From an uncultured Bacteroidia bacterium (GTDB taxonomy: Bacteria; Bacteroidota; Bacteroidia; Bacteroidales; UBA932): a DNA stretch of 46,891 bases. Location: the NCBI GenBank assembly GCA_902789445.1, contig CADAOB010000011.1, positions 1 through 46,891 on the forward strand, given 5' to 3'. The notes under the pieces were generated by a model. That model had not been told where the DNA came from. It saw only the letters and a list, made by a program, of their open reading frames with translations, and searched no databases. Both the position numbers and the translations under genes were made by a program. Below are positions 5,401 through 26,358 of this stretch, one piece after another. The first letter of the stretch is position 1. The number at the start of each line of letters is the position of its first letter.

Positions 5401-6175
5401 GGCCCAGTTCCCGGCGGACAGCCTCGAGCTGCCGCAGGTCCGCCTCCAGGGCTGGACGGATGAAAGAATCCTCCACGCGGATGTCCGTCAGCTGCGTGGT
5501 AAAGGTCGTGTGGCGGCAGTGGTCGCTCCAGTAGGTGTCCAGGATGCGGAGCTCCGTCTCGGTGGGATTGCGTCCTTCCTTGCGGAAATGCAGCACCACT
5601 TCCCGCAGGTCGTCGCTGTTCATCGCCAGGCCCCAGTCGCGGCAGAATCCCGCAAAATCCTTTTCGTCCATATCGGTGAAACCGTCGAGCGAGGCCAGCG
5701 GCCGGACCGCCGCCGCTTCGACGCCGGCGATGACCGAAAGGTCCTTCTCGCGGCTTTCCACGGCATTGATGAAATAACGGCGGACGGCATCGAGCCCTTC
5801 CGCGGAGAAATCATCGTCGAAGATCAGCAGGCGGCCGCTGCGGATATCCACCTGGGCGGAAGGATCGACCAGGTGCACGCAGTCCAGCGCCGAGGCGGCA
5901 CGTTGGTCGAACTGGCCCGGCAGATACTCTACGGCCAGGTAGCGGCGGCCCGTCAGGTCCAGGGCATCACTGACCGTATCGGACACCCGTTCGCCGAAGA
6001 CCGTATAACGGCATTTATCCAGCAATTCGTCGCTGAAGCCGGTCAGGTCGTAGAGATTGACCAGCCGGAGCTGCTTCAGGCCGACGGAGAGGTTTTCATT
6101 GAATTCGTTCAGCAGGCTCTCGGCCTCAACCCGGAAGGCGGGTTTCTTCTCGACAAAGATGCGGCGGCTTCCCAT
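2450..6175 (-). CDS. purL: Phosphoribosylformylglycinamidine synthase, large single-chain form
   Basis: FGAM synthase converts FGAR and glutamine to FGAM. This is the large type of about 1241 residues with the glutaminase fused at the C-terminus, so no separate purQ or purS is needed. Visible marks are [17 protein letters not shown] in the linker and catalytic domain, [36 protein letters not shown], and the glutaminase elements [26 protein letters not shown] and [10 protein letters not shown] (nucleophile Cys) in the last 280 residues. The chosen ATG is at 6175 ([11 protein letters not shown]). The frame stays open to 6382, but that extra 69-residue part is inside purE and looks like shadow sequence. 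The gap to purE is 10 bases. Confidence 0.96.
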
Positions 6176-6185
6176 CGTTCCCTCC

Positions 6186-6653
6186 CTACAGTTCGGTTTG
6201 AAGTACTTTCTCGGCCTGGGCCTTGCGGAAATCAGCCAGTCTGGCGGCCAGGGCCGCATCCTGCAGTGCCAGGATCGAAATGGCGTAGAGCGCCGCATTC
6301 TTGGCGCCGTCGATGGCCATCGTGGCCACCGGGATGCCGGACGGCATCTGCACGATCGACAGCAGGGAATCCATTCCCCCAAGGGCCTTGCTCTTGATCG
6401 GGATGCCGATCACCGGCAGGGTGGTCAGGGCGGCGGCCATGCCCGGCAGATGGGCGGCTCCGCCGGCGCCGGCAATCACGATGCCGACCCCGCGGTCGCG
6501 GGCACCGGCCATGTATTCCATGAAGAACTGCGGCGTCCGGTGTGCGCTGATCACTTTCTTTTCATATTCGACACCAAAGGATTCGAGGGTCTCGCAGGCG
6601 GCGGACATCACGTCCCAGTCGCTCTTCGATCCCATAATGATGCTGACTTTCAT
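6186..6653 (-). CDS. purE: N5-carboxyaminoimidazole ribonucleotide mutase
   Basis: PurE makes CAIR in the middle of the purine pathway. The 155-residue protein begins [16 protein letters not shown], the usual PurE phosphate-binding start, and has the signature ISAHRTPQ and the glycine-rich [14 protein letters not shown]. The SDW form suggests class I (N5-CAIR mutase, partnered with PurK), but no purK is in the window, so the class is inferred. ATG at 6653 is preferred over the in-frame ATG at 6713, because the extra 20 residues are not family-like and a -7 element at 6686-6693 would lie inside them. First gene of the pur operon, divergent from pyr. Confidence 0.95.
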
Positions 6654-6685
6654 AAATCGTTTATCGGTTCGGTTAGACAGAATCA

Positions 6686-6693
6686 CAAATTTA
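6686..6693 (-). promoter_or_regulatory. Candidate -7 element of the pur operon promoter
   Basis: The complement reads TAAATTTG, a match to the Bacteroidota -7 consensus TAnnTTTG, about 33 bases before the purE ATG. The -33 position 19-20 bases further up (complement TTCC) is a poor match to TTTG, so this may need an activator or may be chance in an AT-rich gap. Confidence 0.5.
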
Positions 6694-6738
6694 CAACTAT
6701 AATCAATACGCACGGAAGGAAGCCGACAAAAAAGTTAT

Positions 6739-6750
6739 CAAACCGGTTTG
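6739..6750. promoter_or_regulatory. 12-bp perfect palindrome between the pur and pyr operons, possible operator
   Basis: CAAACCGGTTTG is a perfect palindrome lying 24 bases before the pyr -33 element and 45 bases upstream of the pur -7 element. The AAACCGGTTT core resembles operators of the LacI/GalR family. No regulator gene of that family is in the window. The position fits shared control of both operons, but binding is inference only. Confidence 0.4.
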
Positions 6751-6774
6751 TTGAAAAAAGACTTCGATTATTTC

Positions 6775-6804
6775 TTGCAATTCTCCCGAAACGGCGTATA
6801 TTTG
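6775..6804 (+). promoter_or_regulatory. Promoter of the pyr operon (Bacteroidota type)
   Basis: TTG at 6775-6777 is followed after 19 bases by TATATTTG at 6797-6804, matching the -33 TTTG / -7 TAnnTTTG layout of the primary sigma factor in this phylum. Transcription would begin around 6808-6811 in the sequence AAATTTC, roughly ten bases ahead of the leader ORF. Confidence 0.75.
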
Positions 6805-6817
6805 CAGAAATTTCTGC
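6804..6817. promoter_or_regulatory. 14-bp perfect palindrome at the predicted pyr transcription start
   Basis: GCAGAAATTTCTGC is a perfect 14-bp palindrome directly after (and sharing one base with) the pyr -7 element. It covers the expected start site. It could be an operator. Alternatively its AAATTT centre could be the initially transcribed region for UTP-dependent slippage. Both readings are inference. Confidence 0.4.
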
Positions 6818-6818
6818 C

Positions 6819-6875
6819 ATGAAACGGAAAGAGAACGAAAACACCCTGGTTCAAGATATCGAGACAGCTCGTTGA
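6819..6875 (+). CDS. pyr operon leader peptide (18 residues)
   Basis: ATG at 6819 opens an 18-codon ORF, MKRKENENTLVQDIETAR, ending with TGA at 6873-6875. It begins about ten bases after the predicted transcription start. Its stop codon sits in the loop and first 3'-arm bases of the terminator hairpin at 6863-6881. A ribosome reaching the end would cover the 5' arm and stop the hairpin forming, as in leader-peptide attenuation of E. coli pyrBI. There is no Shine-Dalgarno, which is normal here. It has no run of one amino acid; Arg is the last codon. Expression is not proven. Confidence 0.55.
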   Translation: MKRKENENTLVQDIETAR

Positions 6876-6889
6876 GCTGTCTTTTTTTT
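6863..6889 (+). terminator. Intrinsic terminator/attenuator in the pyr leader
   Basis: GACAGCTC (6863-6870), loop GTT, GAGCTGTC (6874-6881), then eight T (6882-6889). It is a perfect 8-bp stem with an ideal U-tract, 15 bases before the pyrC ATG and downstream of the only good promoter. Since it stands between promoter and operon it must be read through conditionally, so it is best explained as an attenuator. Confidence 0.85.
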
Positions 6890-6904
6890 GTCCTGACGCT
6901 GAAG

Positions 6905-8185
6905 ATGAAAGAGATGCTGCTACTGAAAAATGCGCTTGCCGACAGCGGGAACGGCCTGACCCCGGGACAGGATGTCCTGCTTGCGGACGGCCGGATCCGG
7001 GCCGTCGGCACGGCACTCCCCTGCCCGGCCGGGGCAACGGTCATCGACCTGGCCGGCAAACTGCTTTCCTACGGCTTTGCCGACCTGCACGTCCATTTCC
7101 GGGAGCCCGGCGCCCCGCAGAAGGAAACCATCCGGACCGGCTCGCTGGCCGCTGCCCGGGGCGGCTACACCACGGTCTGCGCGATGCCGAACCTCGATCC
7201 GGCACCCGACGCCCCGGAGACGATTGCCGTGGAGCAGGCCCTCATCGACCGGGACGCCTGCATCCAGGTACTTCCCTACGCCACCATCACCCGGGGCCGG
7301 CGAGGAGAAGAAGTGGTGGACATGGAGGCGCTCAAGGGACGCTGCGTCGCCTTCTCCGACGACGGCAGCGGGGTTCAGCGGGAAACGGTGATGCTGGAGG
7401 CGATGCGGCGGGCCGCCGCGCTGGACTGCATCCTGGCCGCCCACTGCGAAGACAATACGCTCCTGCGCGGCGGGTACATCCACGACGGCCGCTGGTGTGC
7501 AGCCCACGGTCACCGCGGCATCTGCTCCGAAAGTGAATGGGGACAGATCGCCCGCGACCTGGAACTGGCGGCCAGGACCGGCTGCCGCTACCACGTCTGC
7601 CACGTATCCACGAAAGAAAGCGTGGAACTCATCCGCCAGGCCAAACGCAGCGGCGTAGCCGTTACCTGCGAGACCGGGCCGCACTACCTGGTTCTCTGCG
7701 AAGACGACCTGCAGGAAGACGGCCGTTTCAAGATGAATCCGCCCCTGCGCGGCAGCGACGACCGCGCCGCCCTGCTGGAAGGCGTAGCGGACGGCACCAT
7801 CGACGCCATCGCCACGGACCACGCCCCGCATACGGCCGAAGAGAAAAGCCGGGGGCTGGCGGGCAGCGCCATGGGCATCGTCGGCCTGGAAACGGCCTTC
7901 CCCGTCCTCTACACAAAGCTGGTCCGGACCGGACAGCTGCCGCTGGCGCGCCTGCTCGACGCACTCTGCGCCACGCCGCGCCGCATCTTCCGGCTCGGCG
8001 GCGCGCTCCGCGAAGGCGAGCGGGCCGACCTCACGGTCCTGGACCTTGATGCGGAATACACCATTGACAGCCGCCTTTTCCTGTCCAAGGGGCACGCGAC
8101 GCCTTTCGACGGATGGGATGTCTGCGGCGCCGTGCGGGCCACCTGGTCCGGCGGCAATCTTGTATGGAATGATAATCTTGTCTGA
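6905..8185 (+). CDS. pyrC: Dihydroorotase
   Basis: Dihydroorotase cyclises carbamoyl-aspartate to dihydroorotate. The 426-residue protein is of the class I, amidohydrolase type: GFADLHVHFREPG holds the HxH zinc ligands and the substrate Arg, AHCEDN and HVCHVS carry further His ligands, and AIATDHAPHT contains the catalytic Asp. The ATG at 6905 is chosen because the in-frame ATG at 6872 would put the start inside the terminator hairpin. First structural gene of the operon; its TGA shares one base with the pyrK ATG. Confidence 0.95.
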   Translation: MKEMLLLKNALADSGNGLTPGQDVLLADGRIRAVGTALPCPAGATVIDLAGKLLSYGFADLHVHFREPGAPQKETIRTGSLAAARGGYTTVCAMPNLDPAPDAPETIAVEQALIDRDACIQVLPYATITRGRRGEEVVDMEALKGRCVAFSDDGSGVQRETVMLEAMRRAAALDCILAAHCEDNTLLRGGYIHDGRWCAAHGHRGICSESEWGQIARDLELAARTGCRYHVCHVSTKESVELIRQAKRSGVAVTCETGPHYLVLCEDDLQEDGRFKMNPPLRGSDDRAALLEGVADGTIDAIATDHAPHTAEEKSRGLAGSAMGIVGLETAFPVLYTKLVRTGQLPLARLLDALCATPRRIFRLGGALREGERADLTVLDLDAEYTIDSRLFLSKGHATPFDGWDVCGAVRATWSGGNLVWNDNLV

Positions 8186-15858: not shown

Positions 15859-15866
15859 CAAAGATA
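15859..15866 (-). promoter_or_regulatory. -7 element of the uraA operon promoter
   Basis: The complement reads TATCTTTG, an excellent TAnnTTTG match, 22 bases before the uraA ATG, in the short gap after the signalling operon. The -33 region is weak. The 98-base gap shows no clear terminator for the operon to the right, so some read-through is possible. Confidence 0.6.
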
Positions 15867-15935: not shown

Positions 15936-17189
15936 TCAGGGCTCGATTTCGACCCGGTCGACTACCGTTCCCTGACGGTCGAGCAGCGTGACGGTCATCT
16001 TCTTCGGCGTGACGGACAAGTGCAGCGCGCCGACGGTCTTCGGCCCTTCGTTCCAGCGGAAATCGATCCGGTCGGCATTGTCGGCCAGTGGTCCGTACAG
16101 CGCCTGTCCCCGTTCGTTGTCGCTCGAAGGCGTCTGGACGTACACGACGCCCTTGTCGTGCGCCCGGACATAAATATGGTTGTTGCCCGCCAGGGCCAGG
16201 TTTACGCCGTATTTCTCGAAGATCTCGTGCCAGCGTCCAAACTGCGAAGTGCGGCCGTCCGTGCCGAAAAACCACTGGTAGTGCTCACAGACCAGTTTGT
16301 AGCGGGCATCGGCATTGTCCTGCAGGACTTTCTCCACCCAGGCGGAAGCCGCGGCGAATCCCGTGCTGTCGCGCATCGTCTCGTTGTTGAGCATGATGAA
16401 CAGGGCGTCGCCGTAGCGGAACCAGTAGCTGACCCCCTCTTCGCCCGGATAACCGTTGCGGGGATTGGCCGTCGCGTTGCGGAAGAAATCGTTCGACAGC
16501 TGGTAGCGGCGGGTCATGTGGTCGTGGTTTCCGTTGAGCGAGGCCCACATATAGTCGCGGAAAGGCTGTTCCTGGTACATCTGCACCCAGAACGAATAGC
16601 TGCCGCCCCAGGCGCAGACATCGCCCAGGTTGAGCACCCAGTCATACTTGTCGTACGAACGGACGGCATCCATCATCTTCATAGCCGCTTCGAGCCGGCC
16701 CGGGAGCGGCGGATAGCTGTGGAAGTCGGAGATGATGCAGGCATTCCACTTCCTGTCGCCCGCCGTCCGGAAACGATAGACCTGGCTTCTGGCCTCGCGG
16801 CCGTCCGTCCCCTGGTACGTGACGTAATAGCAGTAGTCCGTCCTGGGCTTGAGGCTGTCCAGCGCCAGGTCGTATTTCAGGAAACGGGCGTCCTCGTTGA
16901 AATTCTCGCCATTGGCCCTTTTCGACCAGATGGTGTCGTAAACGGCGCAGTAGCGGCCTTCCGCCTGCAAGGTACGGGCCTTTTTCCAGCGCCGGTCACG
17001 GGCTTCCGTCAGCGTGACGCTGCAGGAAGTGGCCAGGGTATCGCTCCCCCAGCTGAGCCGCATCTGGGTCGAGGCATCCTCCCCGGGGCAGGTCGTGATG
17101 CTGAAAATGTCGAGACTGTCCAGCCCCTGCGCAAAGAGTCCGCCCGCGCACAAAAGCGTCAGGGCGAGCGTCAGAAGCAGCCTGCGCAT
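15936..17189 (-). CDS. Secreted calcineurin-like / purple-acid-phosphatase-like metallophosphoesterase
   Basis: A 417-residue exported protein with a signal peptide (MRRLLLTLAL...GGLFAQ). Residues 35-142 form a fibronectin-like domain of the PAP N-terminal kind. The catalytic domain shows D155 and H157 (SDFHS), D190 (NLGDV), N221/H222/D223 (GNHD) and H303 (CEHYQ). The last metal motif is GNNH (residues 335-338) where GHxH is usual, so one His ligand is replaced by Asn. It starts one base after the STAS gene stop and so belongs to the signalling operon. Substrate unknown; a role in periplasmic phosphate-ester cleavage is inferred. Confidence 0.8.
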   Translation of the reverse strand: MRRLLLTLALTLLCAGGLFAQGLDSLDIFSITTCPGEDASTQMRLSWGSDTLATSCSVTLTEARDRRWKKARTLQAEGRYCAVYDTIWSKRANGENFNEDARFLKYDLALDSLKPRTDYCYYVTYQGTDGREARSQVYRFRTAGDRKWNACIISDFHSYPPLPGRLEAAMKMMDAVRSYDKYDWVLNLGDVCAWGGSYSFWVQMYQEQPFRDYMWASLNGNHDHMTRRYQLSNDFFRNATANPRNGYPGEEGVSYWFRYGDALFIMLNNETMRDSTGFAAASAWVEKVLQDNADARYKLVCEHYQWFFGTDGRTSQFGRWHEIFEKYGVNLALAGNNHIYVRAHDKGVVYVQTPSSDNERGQALYGPLADNADRIDFRWNEGPKTVGALHLSVTPKKMTVTLLDRQGTVVDRVEIEP

Positions 17190-17190
17190 G

Positions 17191-17493
17191 CTACAGGATC
17201 GTGATGATGTGCGAGAACCCCGTGATATCGAACACTTCCTTCACGTGCGGCTTCATGTTGCGCAGCACCAGCTTCGCGCCGCGGGCAGACACGTTTTTCT
17301 GGAGCATCAGGAACATCCGGAGCCCCTGGCTGCTGGTGTATTCCATGTCGGTGCAGTCCATGTCGATTTCCGTATGGTTGCCGTCCATCAGCGGCGTGAT
17401 GTCCTTCATAAACTGATCGGCGTTGGTGGTGTCCAGGCGGCCTTCAAGTCTGACAGACGCCCGGCTGCCTTCTTCGTTGATTGTTACGTTCAT
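17191..17493 (-). CDS. STAS-domain anti-sigma-factor antagonist (RsbV/SpoIIAA-like)
   Basis: A 100-residue single STAS domain. It begins MNVTINEEGSRASVRLEGRLD, and EIDMDCTDMEYTSSQGLRMF carries the Ser-Ser pair (54-55) at the place phosphorylated by RsbW-type kinases. In partner switching, the unphosphorylated form binds the kinase and frees its target; the PP2C phosphatase regenerates it. Both the phosphatase (17513-19423) and a kinase-like domain (in 19431-20735) are adjacent. The final target is not visible: no sigma factor is in the window. Confidence 0.9.
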   Translation of the reverse strand: MNVTINEEGSRASVRLEGRLDTTNADQFMKDITPLMDGNHTEIDMDCTDMEYTSSQGLRMFLMLQKNVSARGAKLVLRNMKPHVKEVFDITGFSHIITIL

Positions 17494-17512
17494 GTTTGTC
17501 TATGGTTTTATT

Positions 17513-19423
17513 TTATTTCTTGTCAAAAAGGATTGTCATAATGGTAATGTCGTCATTCTGGTCCGCACCCCGGGTAAAGTTCTTCACCCGGGAATACAGG
17601 TCGATCGTCGCACTGCCGGACGAGACGGCAGGATTCAGGCCGGCGGCCCATTCTTTCAGCCGGGCTTCTCCGAACTGGGAGTGGTCGCTCTGTTCCGCTT
17701 CGGTCACGCCGTCGGTGTAGAGAACAAGCCGCGTGCCAGGGGCCAGAAGCAGTTCCTCGCCCTGGTAGGGGAAGTCCGGGAAGAGGCCGGCGGCCAGATT
17801 GGGCCGGGCGTGCAGGAAATAAGCCTCCCCGCCGGCGGGAACGACCAGGATCGGATTGTGGCCGGCATTGCAATACGTCATCAGGCCCGTCTTCAGGTCC
17901 AGGCGTCCGGCGAAAATCGTGACGAACATTTCATTCTTGTTGCCGTCGCAGAGGCAATTGTTCACGCGGGACATCACTTCGGCCATCGACAGGCCGAGCG
18001 GGCCGATGAAACGGAAGGCCGCCCGTGCGATGGCCATGAAGAGGGCTGCAGGCACCCCCTTCCCCGAGACATCGCCCACCATGAAGTAGAGGGCGTCGCC
18101 CGCAACCAGGAAATCGTAGAGGTCGCCGCCCACTTCCTTGGCGGGCTGGACCATGGCATTCAGGGAACATTGGTCCAGCTGGGGGAAATTCCGCGGGAGC
18201 ATGCCCATCTGGATGCCGCGGGCGATATTCAGTTCACTTTCGTAGCGCTCGTTCGAGGCCGTGGTCGTCTTGAGCTCGGCGATATATTCGTTGATGGACT
18301 TCTGCATATAGACCAGCGAATCGTGCAGGGTCAGCAGTTCGTCCTTGGACTTGACCGGCGGGATCGTGGCCTTGAAATTGCCTTTGGCGATGGTCATCGC
18401 CGCCTGGCTGAATTCGACCAGCGGCATCGTCTGCCGGCGGATGACCCGGCGGCAGCCCAGGTACATTCCGATCAGGCCCAGCACGATGAAAAGGGCCAGA
18501 AACAGGTTGAACAGATACAGATAGATGAAAGCGGAAGCATAAGACCGCACCAACAGGACGGACCAGCCGTTGCTCAACGGGCCATAGGCGGCATAGGAAT
18601 CATCGCTCGACCCGCCGTTGAAACGGCCGGAACCCCGTTTTCCGCCGACCATGTCGCGCGCCATCGCCAGAGCCGTCGAGTCGCCCATCGCGGCGGTCAC
18701 GTCGAATACCGTCTGGCTGAGCACCTTGGTGCTGTCCGGATGGGCGATATACGTGCCGTTTGCGCTGACCAGCACGGCATAGGAAGTCCCGTCCGGGGCA
18801 ATGTCCCGGATCCGGCCGGCCAGCCATTCCAGGGAAATGTCGGAGGTAATCATTCCGAAAAAGCGGCCCGTCGTATCCCGAAGCGGCTTGGAATAAGTCG
18901 CCATCCGCTGGGAGCCGGCGCCTTCGTCGAAATACGGCTCGCTCCACATCGGCTTGTCGTGCAGGCGGGGAACCCGGTACCAGTCGAGCTGCGGATAGTC
19001 GTAGTCGGGATTTCCCATCGGGATGGTTTTCAGCTCCTTCGTTTCGGCATCGATGTAGGTGTAGACGGCGGACCAGCGTTTCCGCGGAAAATAATACGGC
19101 TCGTAGGCGACGGCGCTGCCGATGATGTTCGGGTTGGCCGATACCAGTTCCCGCGTGGCTTCGGTCATGAACGACTGCCGGCTGCTGTTGCGTTCCACGA
19201 ACCAGTCCACATTGTCCACGGCGCGTTCCACCTCGGTGATGACCTTTTCAACCTCACTGACAGCCAGTTCCAGGTCCTTAGCGGCCACCGCCTCCGAGAC
19301 GCGCTCGATGATCCGGCGCGTCAGGAAGCCCAGCAGCAACGTGACCACGACGAACAGGCCCGCCGAGATCAGGAGGACATAGCGGCTGAGCCGGTTGGAA
19401 ATCGATTTCCTGCCGTAAGCCAT
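17513..19423 (-). CDS. Membrane-bound Cache-HAMP-SpoIIE (PP2C) serine phosphatase
   Basis: A 636-residue sensor phosphatase. Layout: membrane helix at about 14-36, periplasmic Cache-type sensor domain at about 40-293, second helix at about 297-322, HAMP at about 323-385, a short coiled coil, then SpoIIE/PP2C domain at about 420-634. Metal-site motifs are EVGGDLYD (430-437), GDVSGKGVPAAL (450-461), YTDGVTE (569-575) and DQNDDITIM (621-629), all intact. By analogy with RsbU it should dephosphorylate the STAS protein encoded 19 bases downstream in response to an outside signal. The ligand is unknown. It starts 7 bases after the lipid-kinase/ATPase fusion. Confidence 0.92.
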   Translation of the reverse strand: MAYGRKSISNRLSRYVLLISAGLFVVVTLLLGFLTRRIIERVSEAVAAKDLELAVSEVEKVITEVERAVDNVDWFVERNSSRQSFMTEATRELVSANPNIIGSAVAYEPYYFPRKRWSAVYTYIDAETKELKTIPMGNPDYDYPQLDWYRVPRLHDKPMWSEPYFDEGAGSQRMATYSKPLRDTTGRFFGMITSDISLEWLAGRIRDIAPDGTSYAVLVSANGTYIAHPDSTKVLSQTVFDVTAAMGDSTALAMARDMVGGKRGSGRFNGGSSDDSYAAYGPLSNGWSVLLVRSYASAFIYLYLFNLFLALFIVLGLIGMYLGCRRVIRRQTMPLVEFSQAAMTIAKGNFKATIPPVKSKDELLTLHDSLVYMQKSINEYIAELKTTTASNERYESELNIARGIQMGMLPRNFPQLDQCSLNAMVQPAKEVGGDLYDFLVAGDALYFMVGDVSGKGVPAALFMAIARAAFRFIGPLGLSMAEVMSRVNNCLCDGNKNEMFVTIFAGRLDLKTGLMTYCNAGHNPILVVPAGGEAYFLHARPNLAAGLFPDFPYQGEELLLAPGTRLVLYTDGVTEAEQSDHSQFGEARLKEWAAGLNPAVSSGSATIDLYSRVKNFTRGADQNDDITIMTILFDKK

Positions 19424-19430
19424 GGCTTTC

Positions 19431-20735
19431 TCAGGCGACTTTCTTTTTCATCAGGAGGATGTTGCAGCCATCCTCGTATTTGTACTCGATATGGTCCATC
19501 AGCTGCTTGCAAAGGTAGATGCCCAGACCGCCGACCTGGCGTTCCTCAAGCGGAAGCGTGACGTCGGGATCCGCCTTTTCGAGCGGATTGAAGGGAACGC
19601 CGGCATCCCGCAGGAGGATGGTCAGCATCACCCCGTCCGGATCAAGTTCCGTACCGACTTCGATCCAGCCAAGACCGCCGTCGTAGGCATAACGGACTAC
19701 ATTCTCGACCGCCTCCTCGATGGAGAGCCGGATTTTGAACTGGAGGGCCTCATCTTTCGGAATATCGGGCGAAGACATCAGGTAGTCGATGATCTCGCCG
19801 CACTTGTCGATGATGGGTTCAAATCTCTTTTTCATAGTAACGATGGAAGGTAGGATAAATTGGATTTCTCCGGGAAGGACATCGATCTTGAAATCGTGTC
19901 CGGAAACGATTTCTCCGTCGAGGGAAAGGTCGATCAGGTCGCGGGAATGGACCTCGACATGTTGGGCCTGACGGTAATTGAAATGGTGCTGCACGGCGCG
20001 CAGGTCCAGGTGCTCGCCGCGGCGATAGATCGGCAGGATGCCCAGGAAGGAAATCAGCAGCATCGGCCGGATGAGGCATACTTCCGCCAGATTGTCAGAC
20101 ACATCCGCACGCGGAGCGCAGTGGAACTCGCCCCCGCAATAGCCGCCGTTTGACACGGTGCACAGCAACATCCGGCTCAGGTTCATCCGCTTGCCGTCCG
20201 CCACGACGCGGATCCGGTTAAACCGGGCTGTCAGCAGGGCCCGGAAGATCCCGAAGCGGTACGCCTGTTTGGGGTGTCCCATCTCGATCATCCGGTTGGC
20301 TGCCGAAGCCACCACCGCATCGAAGCCGATGTTGATTACGTTGATGGCATAGCTGTCGTTTACCCGCAGCAGGTCGAGCTGGCGGGGCGTACCCGTCAGG
20401 ATGCGCTGCAGGGAGGTGAAATCCCGGTCCGGGAAGTTTTTGGTAAAGTCGTTGGTCGTCCCGAACGCCAGCAGAGCCAGGGATTTCCCCTTGAAACCCG
20501 CCAGGCCGGAAGCCACTTCGTTCAAGGTGCCGGTACCGCCGCAGGCGACGAAACAGACTTTGGCGTTGGGATGCAGGTCGCAGTAAATCCGCGTAAAGCG
20601 GGTCGCATCGCCGACGCCGGAGGTCGTATAGATCTCATAATCAAGGCCGGAACCGGCCTGGCGGATCTGACGGTCCACCTCGTCGGCAATCCAGCGCTTG
20701 TCCTCCCGGCCGTTGATGACGAAGATATAGTGCAT
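19431..20735 (-). CDS. Fusion of diacylglycerol-kinase-like domain with RsbW-type HATPase domain
   Basis: A 434-residue protein with two unrelated parts in one frame. Residues 1-300 are a DAGK/YegS-type lipid kinase: CGGTGTLNEVASGL (65-78), AFGTTNDF (90-97) and SLDGE (271-275). The normally conserved Asp of GGDGT is Thr68. Residues 301-434 are an anti-sigma-kinase-like HATPase: N-box EEAVENVVRYAY (340-351), DAGVPF (377-382) and GGLGIYL (402-408). The junction falls exactly at Met301 (ATG at 19833-19835) with no linker, so the ATPase may also be made from its own internal start, or the fusion arose by loss of a stop. Neighbours SpoIIE and STAS supply the rest of a partner switch. Coupling lipid phosphorylation to it is inference. 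Confidence 0.85.
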   Translation of the reverse strand: MHYIFVINGREDKRWIADEVDRQIRQAGSGLDYEIYTTSGVGDATRFTRIYCDLHPNAKVCFVACGGTGTLNEVASGLAGFKGKSLALLAFGTTNDFTKNFPDRDFTSLQRILTGTPRQLDLLRVNDSYAINVINIGFDAVVASAANRMIEMGHPKQAYRFGIFRALLTARFNRIRVVADGKRMNLSRMLLCTVSNGGYCGGEFHCAPRADVSDNLAEVCLIRPMLLISFLGILPIYRRGEHLDLRAVQHHFNYRQAQHVEVHSRDLIDLSLDGEIVSGHDFKIDVLPGEIQFILPSIVTMKKRFEPIIDKCGEIIDYLMSSPDIPKDEALQFKIRLSIEEAVENVVRYAYDGGLGWIEVGTELDPDGVMLTILLRDAGVPFNPLEKADPDVTLPLEERQVGGLGIYLCKQLMDHIEYKYEDGCNILLMKKKVA

Positions 20736-22147
20736 TATCCGAGCAGATACTTGTCAATGTGTTCCCGCCAGTGCGGAAGCATGGCTTCCCGGTTGGCGAA
20801 ATGGATCATGTGGAGCGAAGCGAACGGTGCGATGTCGCGCCGGACCGCCTCCGGATCGGCCTCCGGGCCGTAATACGTGCGGACAAACACATCCCAGACC
20901 TGCACCATCTGCGCATGGCTGATATGGAAGAGCTTCTGCGCCAGTTCATCGCTCTCGTTGCCGATGCACACGAAGTAGAGCATGCCCAGGTCGAAGCGCG
21001 GGTCGCCGTAGCGGAAATCCGCCAGGTCGATCCACCAGGACCGGCCGTCCGCCATGATGAGGTTGCCGATGTGCATATCGCCGTGCAGACAGGTATGCGC
21101 GTCCGGCACGCTGTCCACAAAGGCTTCCATCCGCGCCTTCTGCGCCGCGTCGAAATCCCTGGAAGCGGCGATCACCGCCTTGAAATGATCCTTGGCAGCG
21201 GTAAAGACCCGTGTGTTGCAAGGAATTGCGTGCAGAGCCCTGCACTGACGGGCGAATTCGGCCGCGAATGTTTCCAGTTTCTCCGGCTCCTGGGAAATGG
21301 CACGCGCATAGGAGCGCTTGTCGCGGATCCGTTCGAACTCCACGCCCACACGCTTGCCGTCGGTCACCATCCGGTATGCCTTGGGAATCCGGATGCCCAG
21401 GTCCATGATGGCCCAGGCCATCCGCAGTTCACGCTCCGGCTCGGAAATCGGCATGTACGCGGCATAGAGCTTCATCATCCGCCTGCCATCCTTATGGTTG
21501 TAGCTGGTGGCGGTGTATCCGTCGCCGCTCTCTTCATAGTCATTGATGTCAATCCATTCCGGACGCGGCTTGCCGAACACGTGTTCGATGTGCCAGGCGA
21601 ACTCCGTGAAGGCATGGGTGCCGGCCAGGTCGCTCAGCGACTCGGCCAGGCCGCGGTAATGCCATTCGTGGTCCGCACGTCCGCCCGGCGCGTGGAAGCG
21701 TTCCCACAGCTTGTCGCCCAGCGCGTCGTAATCGCGGGAAATGGCCCGCATGTTCGAGAGTTTGTCGCCCATCGCCACGACCTTTGCGTCATACGGCGCG
21801 GCGGCCAGGCGGTCGATGGCGGCCTGCTTGCGCTCGCGCCAACTGGCAGATTCGGGACGGCCCTCGACGAACTTGTCGCTCTCTGTCTCGACGATCTTCG
21901 CGATCCGACCGCCGAATTCCGCCCGGATGGTCTCGAGCGGCGTGTCGGTATCCTCCACTACATCGTGGAGGGCGGCGGCGGCCAGGAGTTCCTGGTCCGC
22001 CGTGAGGGTGGCGACGATCGCCACGGCTTCGAGCGGATGGACGATATAGGGGAACCCCTTCCCCCGGCGCTCCGTATTGTGATGCGCCCGGACGGCAAAG
22101 CAGATGGCCTTGTCGAGCAAGGTGCTGTCTATAAACTCGTTCGCCAT
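20735..22147 (-). CDS. Fusion of SpoT/MESH1-type HD hydrolase with APH-family kinase domain
   Basis: A 470-residue two-domain protein. Residues 1 to about 195 are an HD domain of the (p)ppGpp hydrolase type: GFPYIVHPLEAV (31-42), the metal pair HD at 61-62 within HDVVEDT, and GDKLSNMRAI (127-136), equivalent to the DRLHNMR motif of SpoT. Residues about 215-465 are an aminoglycoside-phosphotransferase-like kinase: catalytic loop CLHGDMHIGN (353-362) and metal-binding WWIDLADFRYGDPRFD (371-386), similar to the TIGR02172 group. It starts on the last base of the alarmone-synthetase stop codon. Likely role: removal of (p)ppGpp made by its neighbour, with the kinase part acting on an unknown small molecule. 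Drug resistance is unlikely. Confidence 0.85.
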   Translation of the reverse strand: MANEFIDSTLLDKAICFAVRAHHNTERRGKGFPYIVHPLEAVAIVATLTADQELLAAAALHDVVEDTDTPLETIRAEFGGRIAKIVETESDKFVEGRPESASWRERKQAAIDRLAAAPYDAKVVAMGDKLSNMRAISRDYDALGDKLWERFHAPGGRADHEWHYRGLAESLSDLAGTHAFTEFAWHIEHVFGKPRPEWIDINDYEESGDGYTATSYNHKDGRRMMKLYAAYMPISEPERELRMAWAIMDLGIRIPKAYRMVTDGKRVGVEFERIRDKRSYARAISQEPEKLETFAAEFARQCRALHAIPCNTRVFTAAKDHFKAVIAASRDFDAAQKARMEAFVDSVPDAHTCLHGDMHIGNLIMADGRSWWIDLADFRYGDPRFDLGMLYFVCIGNESDELAQKLFHISHAQMVQVWDVFVRTYYGPEADPEAVRRDIAPFASLHMIHFANREAMLPHWREHIDKYLLG

Positions 22148-23244
22148 TACATATCGTGTATTTTGATCAGTCTTTCAAAAATGCGCTGTGCCGTATCGGC
22201 ATTGTACTTGGACGTGCCGTTGAGGCAGTCGAGGAAGCGTTCGATCCCCTTGACGCCGTCCTGCTGCGCCGCGTAAACGATGCAGACGTTCTGCAGGCCC
22301 AGTGTCGAGGCGATGATGTCCAGGTCGGTGCCGCTGATCTGGTGGAGCGCCAGCTGGAAGGCCTTCTCGGAGCAGTGCTTGCGCATGTTCTCCACGTCGC
22401 CCAGGGTCTTGAGCCCCAGCTTGCGCATCGGTTCCAGGTACGGCATGCCGCTCAGGGGCTGGATCTCCGCCTGGTTGATGGAGGCGATCTTCGCGTTGAG
22501 CTGGGCGAAGGGATCGAGGGCCAGGTAGCTGCGCAGGGTGTCGGCGTTGAGCGAGACCGCTTCGAAACTGCCGTCCTTGACCAGCTCCTCCACCTTGCGG
22601 CGGTAGTCGGTCAGTTCCTTGCGGATGCGGCTGAATTCATCGTCCGCCAGTTCCAGGATACCGGCCAGGCGGCTCAGGGTCCGGATGTATTCGGGCGGTA
22701 CTTCGAAGCCGCTCTTGTAGCCCGTGTCGTGATTCATGTTGGCCCAGACATGCTGCAGGGCCGTCCGCATCTGGATCTCGAACCAGCAGTCGTTCAGGCC
22801 GGGGAATTCTTCGTCGGTATAGAGCGACTTGGGGATCCGGCAGATATAGTGGAGCGACATATAGCCGAACGTGTCGATCGCCAGCAGCTTGCGCTTGTCC
22901 ACCGAGTTGTCCCAGTCCACTTCGAACAGGCTGTCCACCAGGGCGGAAATCTTATCGACCTCATCGTTGTAGAACGTGATGATGCGCGCGCCCACAATGT
23001 CGGTGATATCGTCGATCGTCTTGTATTTCTGTCCTTTCAGCTCCAGCTTGCCGGCCAGGCTTTCTTCCTGCTTGACGCGGGCTTCCAGGCCGGATACGAC
23101 CAGATGGCTCCGTTTCAGGCAGCCTTCGAGCTGCTTGAGCACGATCTGCCGGAGCCGGTTGTACATCGGCAGGTTCTCCCGGTATTCCTGCAGGATCATC
23201 GAGCAGTGCAGGTCCAGGCCGTATTCGTGGATTTCCTTAGCCAT
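22147..23244 (-). CDS. (p)ppGpp synthetase (RelA/SpoT synthetase domain, hydrolase-less)
   Basis: A 365-residue GTP pyrophosphokinase. ESLAGKLELKG (61-71) is the ATP-site helix, DDITDIVGARII (78-89) the metal-site motif, GYMSLHY (127-133) the GTP-stacking Tyr motif, and FEIQMRTALQHVWANMNHD (155-173) the catalytic Glu and His set. All look active. There is no HD domain and no TGS or ACT regulatory region; the C-terminal 150 residues are helical and not recognised. It differs from short SAS proteins by this tail. It overlaps the amidohydrolase gene by 8 bases and the HD-kinase gene by one, so synthetase and hydrolase are separate but co-translated proteins. Confidence 0.9.
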   Translation of the reverse strand: MAKEIHEYGLDLHCSMILQEYRENLPMYNRLRQIVLKQLEGCLKRSHLVVSGLEARVKQEESLAGKLELKGQKYKTIDDITDIVGARIITFYNDEVDKISALVDSLFEVDWDNSVDKRKLLAIDTFGYMSLHYICRIPKSLYTDEEFPGLNDCWFEIQMRTALQHVWANMNHDTGYKSGFEVPPEYIRTLSRLAGILELADDEFSRIRKELTDYRRKVEELVKDGSFEAVSLNADTLRSYLALDPFAQLNAKIASINQAEIQPLSGMPYLEPMRKLGLKTLGDVENMRKHCSEKAFQLALHQISGTDLDIIASTLGLQNVCIVYAAQQDGVKGIERFLDCLNGTSKYNADTAQRIFERLIKIHDM

Positions 23245-24421
23245 TGCGTTTCATAACGATTTTTCCGTTGCAGATGACGCAGTCGATGCAGCTGCTGCCG
23301 GCCGCATAGACCCAGTTGGAAATCAGGTTGTGGCAGGGCTGCATTCGCGGGTCGTCGAGCCGGACCAGCAAGGCGTCGGCCAGCGCCCCTTCGCGGATGA
23401 CGCCGGCGTCCAGGCCGAAGGCCTCGGCGCCACTACGGGTAGCCATTTCGAGGGCCTCCGCCGCGGGAAGCACTTCGGGGTCACCGCTGCTGACCTTGGC
23501 CAGCAGGGCTGCGAATTTCATTTCCTCGCGCATGTCGAGGTTGTTGTTCGACGAGTCGCCGTCGGTGCCCAAGGTGATGCGGCAGCCCGCCTCGTGCAAC
23601 AGTTTGTACGGGAAGATGCCCGAGGCCAGCTTCATGTTCGAGCACGGACAGTGCGCGATGGTCACGCCGCGACCGGCCAGGATCGCGGCTTCCTGCTCAT
23701 CGACATGGACCACGTGGGCGGCGATGACATCCGGGCCGAGGAAACCCAGGCTGTCCAGGTAACGGACCGGCGTCGTGCCGTGCGCGCGGAGGCAGTCTTC
23801 CACTTCCTGGCGGGTCTCCGACAGGTGGATGTGCAGTTTCAGGCCCAGGGAACGGGCCGTGTCGGCACACTTGACCAGCAGGTCGGGACTCACGGTATAG
23901 ATGGCGTGGGGCGCAACGGTTAGCGTGATCAGTCCGCCGCTGGGATCCACCCAATTGCGGAGCATATCCAGCTTGTCGGCCTGCTGCGACTTGCTGTGCG
24001 AATCCACGAAAGTCACGCCGATGGCAGCGCGGATGCCGAATTCCTGCACCACGGCGATGGTCTGGTCGATCTCGAAATACATGTCCGAGAAAAAGACGGT
24101 GCCGGTCCGGATCATCTCCCGGACCGCCAGGCGGGAACCTTCCCGGATGTCCTGCGCGGTCATCTTGTTCTCATAGGGCCAGATGTAATCCTGAAGCCAC
24201 TTCTGCAGCGGCATGTCGTCGGCGTAGCCGCGCAGCAGGCTCATCGCGGCGTGGGTATGCGTGTTGTAGAAAGGCGGCAGGATGGCCGTCCCTTCCGCGT
24301 CGAGCGTCTCGTCAGCGCGCGTTCCTTCCGGCGCGCAGAGCGACTTGAAACGGCCGTCCGCAACCAGGATGTCCGTCTTCCTGTCCTTCAGCAGGACGTT
24401 CTTGATCAGCAGCGTCTTCAT
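23237..24421 (-). CDS. Amidohydrolase, SAH/MTA deaminase-like
   Basis: A 394-residue metal-dependent hydrolase of the cytosine-deaminase/TrzN group. It has NTHTHAAMSLLRGYADDMPLQKWL (His55 and His57 as metal ligands), HIHLSETRQEVEDCL, AAHVVHVDEQE, AHCPCSNMKLASG and TLGTDGDSSNNNLDM with the catalytic Asp. These are the family marks of 5'-methylthioadenosine/S-adenosylhomocysteine deaminase (MtaD). Related deaminases of this group act on adenosine-type substrates, so the exact substrate is open. It follows deoC by 12 bases and overlaps the alarmone synthetase gene by 8. Confidence 0.85.
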   Translation of the reverse strand: MKTLLIKNVLLKDRKTDILVADGRFKSLCAPEGTRADETLDAEGTAILPPFYNTHTHAAMSLLRGYADDMPLQKWLQDYIWPYENKMTAQDIREGSRLAVREMIRTGTVFFSDMYFEIDQTIAVVQEFGIRAAIGVTFVDSHSKSQQADKLDMLRNWVDPSGGLITLTVAPHAIYTVSPDLLVKCADTARSLGLKLHIHLSETRQEVEDCLRAHGTTPVRYLDSLGFLGPDVIAAHVVHVDEQEAAILAGRGVTIAHCPCSNMKLASGIFPYKLLHEAGCRITLGTDGDSSNNNLDMREEMKFAALLAKVSSGDPEVLPAAEALEMATRSGAEAFGLDAGVIREGALADALLVRLDDPRMQPCHNLISNWVYAAGSSCIDCVICNGKIVMKRNG

Positions 24422-24433
24422 CAGATCTTTCTG

Positions 24434-25225
24434 TTAATAGTACTTTACCGGGCGGTCTTCCAGCGCCGAGAGGAGGTTGTTGGCCATCCGGCTGGCGCCG
24501 AAGCGGAAATAGCGCTTGTCCAGCCAGGCTTTGCCCAGGGTATTCGAGACGATCTTCCAGTATGTGAGCGCGTCTTCGGGGGTGGAAATGCCGCCGGCCG
24601 GCTTGAAGCCGACCATCCGGCCGGTCTTGGCGTGATAGGTCCAGATGCAGTCGCACATGATCTGGGCGGCTTCCGGCGTGGCGGCCGGCTGCATCTTGCC
24701 GGTGGAGGTCTTGATGAAATCGGCACCCGCCTCCATCGCCAGGTAGGAGGCGTCCTCGATCAGCGCTTTCTCCTGCAGCGCACCCGTCTCCAGGATCACT
24801 TTCAGCAGGACGGCGGGGTTGACGGCCCGGATGGCGGAGCCGATTTCCACGATCTCGCGCCGGGCCGACTCATAGTCCTTTTCCAGGAAAGAATTGAGGG
24901 CCAAAACGATATCAACTTCGTCCGCACCGTCGGACACCGCTGCCGTACATTCCGCGATTTTAACGGGAAGCGTACTTTGGGATGCCGGGAAGCATCCGCC
25001 GACCACGGTCACGTGCACATCAGGGGTTTCCCGGGCGACGGCTACCGTCTTCGCGAAATTCGGGTAAACGCAGATCGAAGCCGGCAGCGGGTATTCCGGG
25101 AAACTGTCGTGGAAATGATTGACTTTCCCGGTCATCGCCGTGATTTTCGAAGGGGTGTCCGTACTGTTGAGGGATGTCAGGTCGATCATCCCCAGGACTG
25201 CTTTATAAATTTCCTTGTTATCCAT
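24434..25225 (-). CDS. deoC: Deoxyribose-phosphate aldolase
   Basis: DeoC splits 2-deoxyribose 5-phosphate to glyceraldehyde 3-phosphate and acetaldehyde during deoxynucleoside breakdown. The 263-residue protein has GADEVDIVLAL (catalytic Asp), FIKTSTGK with the Schiff-base Lys172, and GFKPAGGI with the second active-site Lys. Length is like E. coli DeoC (259). No other deo genes are nearby; the neighbours are dtd and an SAH/MTA-deaminase-like gene. Confidence 0.95.
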   Translation of the reverse strand: MDNKEIYKAVLGMIDLTSLNSTDTPSKITAMTGKVNHFHDSFPEYPLPASICVYPNFAKTVAVARETPDVHVTVVGGCFPASQSTLPVKIAECTAAVSDGADEVDIVLALNSFLEKDYESARREIVEIGSAIRAVNPAVLLKVILETGALQEKALIEDASYLAMEAGADFIKTSTGKMQPAATPEAAQIMCDCIWTYHAKTGRMVGFKPAGGISTPEDALTYWKIVSNTLGKAWLDKRYFRFGASRMANNLLSALEDRPVKYY

Positions 25226-25240
25226 ATTCTTCTTGTCTCG

Positions 25241-25693
25241 TCAGATTCTGTTCTTGCTGTCCATGCAGATCGTCACGGGGCCGTCGTTGACCAGGGCCAC
25301 CTGCATGTCGGCGCCGAAGACACCGCTGGCGACCGGCCTGCCGGTCAAGGCGGCCAGGCTTGCCTTGAACTGCTCATAGAGCGGGATGGCCGTCTCGGGG
25401 CGCGCCGCTTTCACATAAGAAGGCCGGTTTCCTTTCTTCGTGGAGGCCATCAGGGTGAACTGGCTTACGGCCAGGATGTCCTGCCCTACCTCCACGACCG
25501 AACGGTTCATCACGCCCGCCTCGTCGTCGAAAATGCGCAGGGCGGCAATCTTGCGCGCCGTCCAGTCCAGGTCTTCCGTCCCGTCAGCCTCTTCGAAACC
25601 GCAAAGTACCATCATGCCGGGGCCGATGGCCGCGACACGCTCTCCGCCGATCGAGACCGAAGCCTCGCGGACACGCTGGATTACGACACGCAT
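25241..25693 (-). CDS. dtd: D-aminoacyl-tRNA deacylase
   Basis: Dtd hydrolyses D-amino acids mischarged on tRNA (and Gly-tRNA-Ala). The 150-residue protein begins MRVVIQRVREASVSI. It carries AVSQFTLMAS (the SQFT motif) and LVNDGPVTICMDS (the NxGP(V/F)T motif), the two active-site signatures. Its ATG directly follows the DUF4296 stop codon. Confidence 0.96.
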   Translation of the reverse strand: MRVVIQRVREASVSIGGERVAAIGPGMMVLCGFEEADGTEDLDWTARKIAALRIFDDEAGVMNRSVVEVGQDILAVSQFTLMASTKKGNRPSYVKAARPETAIPLYEQFKASLAALTGRPVASGVFGADMQVALVNDGPVTICMDSKNRI

Positions 25694-26317
25694 CTATTTC
25701 TTGAGCTCCTCCTCGAGCCGTTTCAAATCGTCTTTGGACATCCGTTTCCGCTTGCTTTCCTTTCGCTGGGGCCTGGGCTCCGGCTTGGGAGCGGGTTTCT
25801 TTTCCTCCACCCGGTCGGCCTTTTCGATCTTTTCAGGCTTTTGGGCCGGCCGTACGTCGCCGGGCTCTTTCTCGATAGCCGGTTCGGAACCTTCGTGGAG
25901 TTCCACTTCTTCCTCCGTCACTTCCTCTTCTTCGGAGATGACCCCATCGGCCGCATCGTCGCCAAAACGGTCGAGCGGCTGGTCGGCGGCTTTCTCAAGC
26001 CGTATGCGGACCCGCTTGAAGATGGCCGACAGGTCTTTCGGGTGGTGGAGGTAATAGCTCATCGACTGCTGGAAAGCCGTATCCGTATAGCCGTATTTTT
26101 CGAGGATCGGCCGATAGACGTGCAGCGAATCCGGATTCAGGTATGTTTCCGCATGGGAATCGTTGGCCGATTCGATGCAGGCGTCGGCCAAGTAAAATTC
26201 GGCGAAAAGGGTTTCCATGTCCCGCGAAGGGATAATCTCCGACTGCCGGCAGCCGGCCGACAGCAGCAGGAGGGCCGTCAATCCCGCCAAAAAGCACTTT
26301 TTTACACTTGAATTCAT
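25694..26317 (-). CDS. DUF4296 lipoprotein with long charged tail
   Basis: A 207-residue predicted lipoprotein. Lipobox LLSAGC puts the modified Cys at residue 23. The next 100 residues (METLFAEFYLADACIES ... YGYTDTAFQQSMSYYLHHP) match the DUF4296 family of Bacteroidota. After about residue 120 comes a Glu-rich then Lys/Arg-rich low-complexity tail (EEEEVTEEEVE; KRKRMSKDDLKRLEEELKK). ATG at 26317 gives the best signal peptide; the frame is open to 26341. First gene of the minus-strand run. Function unknown. Confidence 0.8.
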   Translation of the reverse strand: MNSSVKKCFLAGLTALLLLSAGCRQSEIIPSRDMETLFAEFYLADACIESANDSHAETYLNPDSLHVYRPILEKYGYTDTAFQQSMSYYLHHPKDLSAIFKRVRIRLEKAADQPLDRFGDDAADGVISEEEEVTEEEVELHEGSEPAIEKEPGDVRPAQKPEKIEKADRVEEKKPAPKPEPRPQRKESKRKRMSKDDLKRLEEELKK

Positions 26318-26329
26318 TTTACTTCGGTT

Positions 26330-26337
26330 CAAAGATA
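26330..26337 (-). promoter_or_regulatory. -7 element for the DUF4296-dtd-deoC-alarmone operon
   Basis: The complement is TATCTTTG, a perfect TAnnTTTG, 13 bases before the ATG. It would give a nearly leaderless message. The -33 region is poor. It is the best promoter candidate ahead of the ten-gene run ending at 15936. Confidence 0.55.
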
Positions 26338-26358
26338 GCAACTTTTTGTGTATTTATC

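Follow-up and report, generated by a model that had tools for sequence, protein, structure and literature searches.

The window analysed here, a 46,891-nucleotide stretch from an uncultured Bacteroidia bacterium (Bacteroidales; UBA932; contig CADAOB010000011.1), carries a compact minus-strand gene cluster that joins enzymes of (p)ppGpp (alarmone) metabolism to a SpoIIE/RsbW/STAS partner switch. On balance, we think it somewhat probable that this is an operon whose partner switch governs how active its alarmone synthetase/hydrolase pair is. The basis for this reading is the co-occurrence of the two gene sets, their clustering, the conservation of catalytic residues, the grouping of the synthetases in one clade and a confident fold for the C-terminal domain of the synthetase, here called SYN_C. 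More tentatively, and in our estimation a shade short of even, the direct target of the switch is the synthetase/hydrolase pair, with the signal received through SYN_C, such that outside ligands would set the alarmone level in many gut and rumen Bacteroidales.

An earlier note on this DNA had described six minus-strand genes as a signalling operon. An open reading frame (ORF) check of the window recovers all six in the same place and on the same strand, the recomputed gaps between them (-1, -1, 7, 19 and 1 bases) agree, and every domain named there is backed by Pfam, with support from NCBIfam. The six genes are:

22147-23244, minus strand: SYN, a RelA_SpoT-type alarmone synthetase with the C-terminal domain SYN_C (PF04607)
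20735-22147, minus strand: HD-APH, an HD_4 alarmone hydrolase fused to an APH-type kinase (PF13328, PF01636, TIGR02172)
19431-20735, minus strand: DGK-RsbW, a YegS/DAGK-like domain fused to an RsbW-like GHKL kinase (PF19279, PF00781, PF13581)
17513-19423, minus strand: Cache-HAMP-SpoIIE (PP2C) phosphatase, the probable sensor (PF07228, PF22673, PF02743, PF00672)
17191-17493, minus strand: STAS antagonist-type protein with a serine, Ser55, that by analogy would be phosphorylatable (PF01740, TIGR00377)
15936-17189, minus strand: metallophosphatase, probably exported, an incidental last gene (PF00149)

Linkage of alarmone enzymes and partner-switch genes

With DGK-RsbW as the query, a scan of named genome contigs returned 23 loci, all from Bacteroidales, Bacteroidia or Bacteroidetes metagenome-assembled genomes (MAGs) or bins or from Candidatus Colimorpha, and about 15 of the record titles point to ruminants. 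With genomes present in two collections counted once, 17 distinct clusters (window included) share the order amidohydrolase - SYN - HD(-APH) - DGK.RsbW - SpoIIE - STAS - permease; some are cut by contig ends, and three are incomplete (L058 has no APH, L061 neither APH nor STAS, L066 neither HD nor DGK). Because the set is conserved in other genomes, the grouping is more than chance. The tight alarmone and partner-switch cluster described in the earlier note thus holds up among relatives, and the outcome that would have refuted it, scattering of the genes in every relative, is not what is seen.

As a fair sample against circularity, we considered 36 SYN_C-bearing loci fetched with SYN as the query. 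HD is present in 34 of these, STAS in 31, RsbW in 30, and APH and SpoIIE in 27 each; at least one of RsbW, SpoIIE and STAS occurs in 31 and all three in 27. Dropping the eight loci from genomes with earlier RsbW matches leaves 23 of 28 with a partner-switch gene. In all, 76 loci, three of them duplicates, were read with profiles built for this analysis, and the 54 non-duplicate SYN_C loci fall into 22 arrangements, some of them partial sets, drawn from five family groups plus two MAGs without a family assignment. Partner-switch genes are found in 19 of the arrangements (49 loci). The order SYN-HD-APH-SpoIIE.RsbW-STAS occurs at 17 loci, RsbW-SpoIIE-STAS-SYN-HD.APH at three, a divergent STAS-RsbW / SYN-HD.APH-SpoIIE layout at two, and SpoIIE-RsbW-STAS-SYN-HD.APH and SpoIIE-RsbW-STAS-DGK-SYN-HD at one each. 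That the linkage is kept through so many gene orders is strong evidence for a function shared by SYN/HD and the partner switch. By the same profiles, four loci with a synthetase lacking a recognizable SYN_C have no partner-switch gene.

The association extends to whole genomes. SYN, sought with a 13-row profile (A1) at E <= 1e-30, a threshold that does not demand SYN_C, is found in 153 of 398 genomes of the family. Among 393 genomes of the order there are 10 matches, counting the genome of the window and one weak match, and among 395 of the phylum there are 4, namely the window's genome and three weaker ones. SpoIIE, counted at E <= 1e-20 in the same 398 family genomes, occurs in 207: both genes are present in 153, SpoIIE only in 54, SYN only in none and neither in 191. 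In 14 genomes picked for holding SYN, there are one to three SpoIIE genes and at least one HATPase_c_2 gene per genome, and SpoIIE reaches up to six per genome across the family list; with SpoIIE so scarce, a chance neighbourhood with SYN is unlikely.

The synthetase and its C-terminal domain

SYN has 365 residues: a catalytic RelA_SpoT domain (1-215; PF04607, 62 bits) and the helical SYN_C of 150 residues (216-365). R56, K58, K66, D82, R87, Y128, S130, H132, E156, Q158, R160 and H172 are invariant in all 59 SYN sequences, and by both its Pfam match and these active-site residues the catalytic domain belongs with the RelA_SpoT synthetases. A conserved DKRK stretch (residues 116-119) lies near what we take to be the position of the RxKD loop in Rel proteins. 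Foldseek matches of the catalytic part are small alarmone synthetases, the best being 5ded_A (E 1.7e-8), and in profile comparisons RelP/RelQ structures are reached at E about 1e-12 to 1e-14, CapRel at about 0.01. The length of SYN departs from the single domain of 210-240 residues that defines the RelP/RelQ subfamily.

AlphaFold2 models full-length SYN at a predicted local distance difference test (pLDDT) score of 85 and SYN_C alone at 94, with a predicted template-modelling (pTM) score of 0.89 (45 sequences); in these models SYN_C is a separately folding domain, predicted with confidence. A Foldseek search of SYN_C against the PDB gave no match at E <= 0.001, the best E among the best 50 of 102 matches being 0.97. 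A tree built from 69 catalytic domains places the 54 SYN_C loci and the window in one clade (100/100). This clade sits on a long branch beside relatives from viral contigs, and the tree program flags long branches. Genera are intermixed within it, which means that there has been transfer or lineage sorting.

The viral-contig relatives comprise 16 loci (L111-L126) whose synthetases share 35-43% identity with SYN across the aligned part; open frames of 352-385 residues are present in 15 of the 16. A profile of their C-termini (12 of the 16 viral loci plus L106) aligns with SYN_C in hhalign at 95%, E 3.6e-8 and 15% identity, and the SYN_C model fails to reach the viral-contig C-termini at E 0.01. 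We had considered SYN_C as a domain unique to the partner-switch system, an idea that this remote relationship tempers. A plasmid search with SYN gave 15 records, none covering 80% of it, and identity did not exceed 41% in the 10 matches listed.

Hydrolase, switch proteins and probable sensor

In HD-APH, the HD_4 hydrolase occupies residues 1-185 (PF13328, 68 bits) and the APH-type kinase about 190-470 (PF01636, 47 bits); the TIGR02172 match scores 237 bits against a cut-off of 228. The motifs LHD(V/T)xEDT and DKxSN are found in 51 of 51 HD sequences, and H37, H61, D62, E65, D66, D128 and N132 are invariant, so the HD, ED and DxxxN hydrolase motifs are present; the APH motif HGDxxxxN is kept in 44 of 44. 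The fusion is modular, as the hydrolase ends without an APH kinase in L061 (9386-9985) and likewise in L058. On a 6-kb contig without SYN, L041:1473-2654 encodes STAS and APH in one 393-residue protein that adjoins a SpoIIE.RsbW fusion, which hints at the APH kinase as a possible target of STAS.

All three proteins of the switch have the sequence hallmarks of a partner-switching module. SpoIIE matches PF07228 (154 bits), PF22673 (92 bits), PF02743 (52 bits) and PF00672 (27 bits), and the PP2C metal-binding acids are present (GDVSGKG in 58 of 59 sequences, TDG in 58 of 59, DDxT in 59 of 59). The RsbW-like part of DGK-RsbW (residues 299-434) matches PF13581 at 72 bits and keeps its N, G1 and G2 boxes: E42, E43, N47, D79, G81, G105 and G107 are invariant across 64 of 64 RsbW sequences. 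STAS matches PF01740 (61 bits) and TIGR00377 (72 bits, above the cut-off), and Ser55, by analogy the phosphorylation site, is found in 61 of 61 sequences.

Eleven of the 17 close clusters hold a gene of about 316 residues between RsbW and SpoIIE. The four cases scanned with Pfam (L048:1977-2927 and L058:11248-12192, together with L039 and L041, which lie outside the 17 close clusters) are NMT1/THI5-like solute-binding proteins, and the L048 gene, used as the seed of a profile, picks up the remaining ones. Identity of the SpoIIE sensor half to that of the window is 48-54% in clusters with the binding-protein gene and 58-65% in those without; this split fits two sensor versions, one of which would work with a binding protein. 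Autoinducer-2 (AI-2) was considered as a candidate Cache-domain ligand (PMC9540692).

The remaining part of DGK-RsbW, residues 1-298, is YegS/DAGK-like. The aspartate of its GGDGT motif is missing in 22 of 22 DGK sequences, which read GGSGT (10), GGTGT (6) or otherwise (6; L069 has a glutamate), whereas the motif is kept in five of six paralogous lipid kinases of the family, the sixth falling outside the pattern used. Lipid kinase activity of the domain is therefore doubtful, although we do not dismiss it outright because the DGE acids of the C-terminal half remain in all 22. DGK occurs in 15 of the 54 loci, these coming from the scan that used DGK-RsbW as query, and in none of the 36 fetched with SYN. 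The fusion to RsbW pointed out in the earlier note is present in the window but proves local: it is found in full in four of seven genomes of the window's own genus (first sample), and RsbW elsewhere is free or fused to SpoIIE.

A model for signal flow

We propose that an outside ligand would act on the Cache-HAMP part of SpoIIE, perhaps delivered in many close relatives by the NMT1/THI5-like solute-binding protein. Going by the conserved motifs and by known partner-switching biochemistry, SpoIIE would dephosphorylate, and the RsbW-like kinase phosphorylate, Ser55 of STAS. By analogy with SiaC and SiaD (below), STAS in one phosphorylation state would bind SYN, most likely at SYN_C, or else HD(-APH), and this binding would shift (p)ppGpp synthesis against hydrolysis. 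APH and DGK would be accessory. The adjacency of the genes suggests, short of proof, that outside signals set the level of the alarm directly.

Several observations weigh against this model. The link from the switch to the alarmone enzymes is one we infer by analogy, not from physical interaction. Mirror-tree distance correlations (partial correlations over 42 loci plus the window, 43 rows in all) gave, as expected, 0.57 for RsbW-STAS and 0.42 for SpoIIE-STAS; for SYN_C they gave 0.49 with SpoIIE and 0.08 with STAS. Contact between STAS and SYN_C is thus not supported by this measure, which we rejected as proof of it and which does not disprove it. Five of the 36 SYN-fetched loci (L074, L075, L083, L085 and L104) have no partner-switch gene nearby: L104 is a 4.2-kb contig, and the three genomes checked, those of L074 (G381), L083 (G666) and L085 (G679), hold SpoIIE and HATPase_c_2 on other contigs. 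The Fisher p of 4e-64 for co-occurrence of SYN and SpoIIE takes no account of kinship; of the 25 genera, 5 have SYN and 10 have SpoIIE. SYN_C, given its relatives in viral-contig synthetases, did not arise solely for the switch. Finally, 54 of the 398 family genomes have SpoIIE but no SYN, and some switches stand beside importer genes or DGK; the switch therefore has other uses.

Alternative explanations

This last point bears on what we regard as the strongest alternative, unlikely but of appreciable weight: that the operon has separate outputs. The switch would then control a transporter or sigma factor whose gene lies elsewhere, and the alarmone genes would only share its expression, all forming a single stress unit. 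The genomes with SpoIIE and no SYN speak for this, as does the lack of SYN_C-STAS coupling in the distance test. So do the switches without SYN at L037, L043 and L067, which adjoin SBP_bac_3/permease genes; L085 has an SBP_bac_3-permease beside SYN, and an ABC ATPase gene is also found in L037, L067 and L085. The window's own genome (G000, a MAG 84% complete) encodes two more SpoIIE proteins (C18:51419-51994 and, more weakly, C25:3651-4208) against a single HATPase_c_2 match; several phosphatases may thus depend on the fused RsbW. However, none of the 153 SYN genomes lacks SpoIIE, and the adjacency outlasts many rearrangements, beyond the usual need of co-expression. Moreover, in line with the earlier note, no sigma factor was recognized among the ten proteins scanned with Pfam (nine of the ten-gene unit described below and the permease).

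Four clusters of the form RsbW - SpoIIE - STAS - DGK (L062-L065) have no SYN in the stretch covered and perhaps show the switch feeding another type of output. In the three of them examined for it (L062, L063 and L065), a PrsW-like protease precedes the clusters of L062 and L063 and was not seen in L065.

We consider it improbable that SYN is toxic, or directed at tRNA or adenosine, with HD as a neutralizing hydrolase, the two forming a regulated defence or toxin-antitoxin unit. In favour of this reading, FaRel is flanked by an antitoxin that is a small alarmone hydrolase (PMC11782079), the catalytic part of SYN has a match in PDC-S33, a PADLOC candidate family (E 3.7e-13, 48 bits), and viral-contig genes are among the closest relatives of SYN beyond the operon group. 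Against it stands, as no more than a suggestion, the much closer match to RelP/RelQ than to CapRel structures; a gene pair kept together with a sensor and a switch across many genomes also does not look like a mobile toxin pair. We downgraded to very improbable the earlier note's proposal that lipid phosphorylation by DGK is a main output, with RsbW linking DGK to the switch: DGK is fused to RsbW in the window's own group, and a separate DGK gene lies beside partner-switch genes in L062-L065, L067 and L069, but the GGDGT aspartate is lost in DGK and intact in most paralogue controls, and DGK is absent from the SYN-fetched loci.

Transcription unit and neighbouring genes

Returning to the window, the alarmone and partner-switch genes that we favour as one functional system probably share a longer transcription unit than the six genes first described:

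23237-24421, minus strand: amidohydrolase (deaminase-like), a neighbour in the window's own genus group (PF01979, 239 bits)
24434-26341, minus strand: DeoC, D-Tyr-tRNA deacylase (DTD) and a 215-residue ORF (25694-26341) (PF01791, PF02580)
26330-26337, minus strand: TATCTTTG, possible -7 box for the whole unit (no -33 match)
15859-15866, minus strand: TATCTTTG, possible -7 box for the downstream NCS2 permease, at the end of the unit (no -33 match)

The amidohydrolase gene overlaps the SYN start by 8 bases, and the gaps upstream of it are 12, 15 and 0 bases (DeoC, DTD and the 215-residue ORF, which has a weak NCBIfam match only). The likely unit is therefore of ten genes, starting upstream of SYN; the permease follows the metallophosphatase after a 98-base gap.

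We scanned the minus strand from 13 to 27.5 kb for TAnnTTTG, which we take to be the Bacteroidetes-type -7 box consensus. Three boxes were found, the two listed and one at 19510-19517 inside the DGK-RsbW gene; under the pattern used, a -33 partner was absent for all three. The box at 26330-26337 is near the first gene and overlaps the mechanical TTG start of the 215-residue ORF. A first promoter pattern had given no matches and a fuller one a single match, on the opposite strand at 6775. A sigma-70-like site lies immediately ahead of STAS (17539-17510), from a scan that found 2 sites against 3.8 expected. Because promoter-like sites occur inside the unit, in the DGK-RsbW gene and before STAS, one continuous transcript is likely rather than assured. 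The co-translated operon of the earlier note thus stands as to its tight packing, but its boundary was incomplete and two promoter-like sites fall within it.

The metallophosphatase, which that note had counted as part of the system, is ruled out as a core part by its rarity: it is present in two of the 17 close clusters (window included), L053 being the only one among the relatives read, and in one of the 54 synteny loci. Its N-terminus, judged by eye, suggests that it is probably exported. Of the 54 SYN loci, 16 have an amidohydrolase gene on the same strand no more than 8 kb away; in L053, a Na+/H+ exchanger with TrkA_C domains (5885-7501) is inserted between the amidohydrolase and SYN.

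Comparison with known systems

Known control of (p)ppGpp relies mostly on long Rel/SpoT proteins that sense ribosomes or metabolites, and on small binding proteins. Here, partner switching probably targets the alarmone pair. The earlier note knew of no described system with this content, and we likewise found no description of alarmone enzymes combined with a partner switch in the open literature, a search whose scope took in few subscription papers. If the proposal is true, Bacteroidales would gain a programmable route from the environment to growth control; as the parts are small soluble proteins and one receptor, the idea is directly testable.

Among the enzymes, RelP and RelQ share the catalytic fold and residues of SYN and are its best PDB matches; SYN differs in its extra C-terminal domain and in its phospho-switch cluster. 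In Escherichia coli, YtfK, YmgB and NirD are proteins that likewise bind a SpoT/RelA alarmone enzyme and shift its activity. None of them is known to be a STAS protein under phosphorylation control by a membrane phosphatase. A 2011 survey by Atkinson names Rel and RshB for eight Bacteroidia genomes, with one further marked column unlabelled, and because these are the enzymes named there, SYN is probably absent from its set (PMC3153485).

The switch itself uses the same three protein families, with the same conserved motifs, as SpoIIE/SpoIIAA/SpoIIAB and RsbU/RsbV/RsbW. Unlike those systems, the window cluster has alarmone enzymes and no recognized sigma factor, such that the cognate sigma factor that marks SigB/SigF-type operons is lacking among the ten proteins scanned, and RsbW is fused to a lipid-kinase-like protein in the window or to SpoIIE in others.

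The closest parallel in logic that we can offer is SiaABCD of Pseudomonas aeruginosa, in which unphosphorylated SiaC activates the cyclase SiaD, and SiaA and SiaB set SiaC phosphorylation (PMC8457831, PMC7647112). Both systems have a membrane HAMP-PP2C phosphatase, a kinase, a phosphorylatable partner and a nucleotide-messenger synthetase, and no sigma factor. They differ in output, which is a GGDEF cyclase in SiaABCD and a RelA_SpoT enzyme in the window, where no GGDEF domain was found among the proteins scanned, and in their phosphatases, the window SpoIIE scoring 56 bits with the SiaA model, whose cut-off is 700. SiaC is a DUF1987 protein, whereas the window protein matches only STAS families (PF01740 and PF13466). 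The sia operon is not known to contain a hydrolase. If our reading is true, partner switching would serve a second nucleotide messenger besides cyclic di-GMP.

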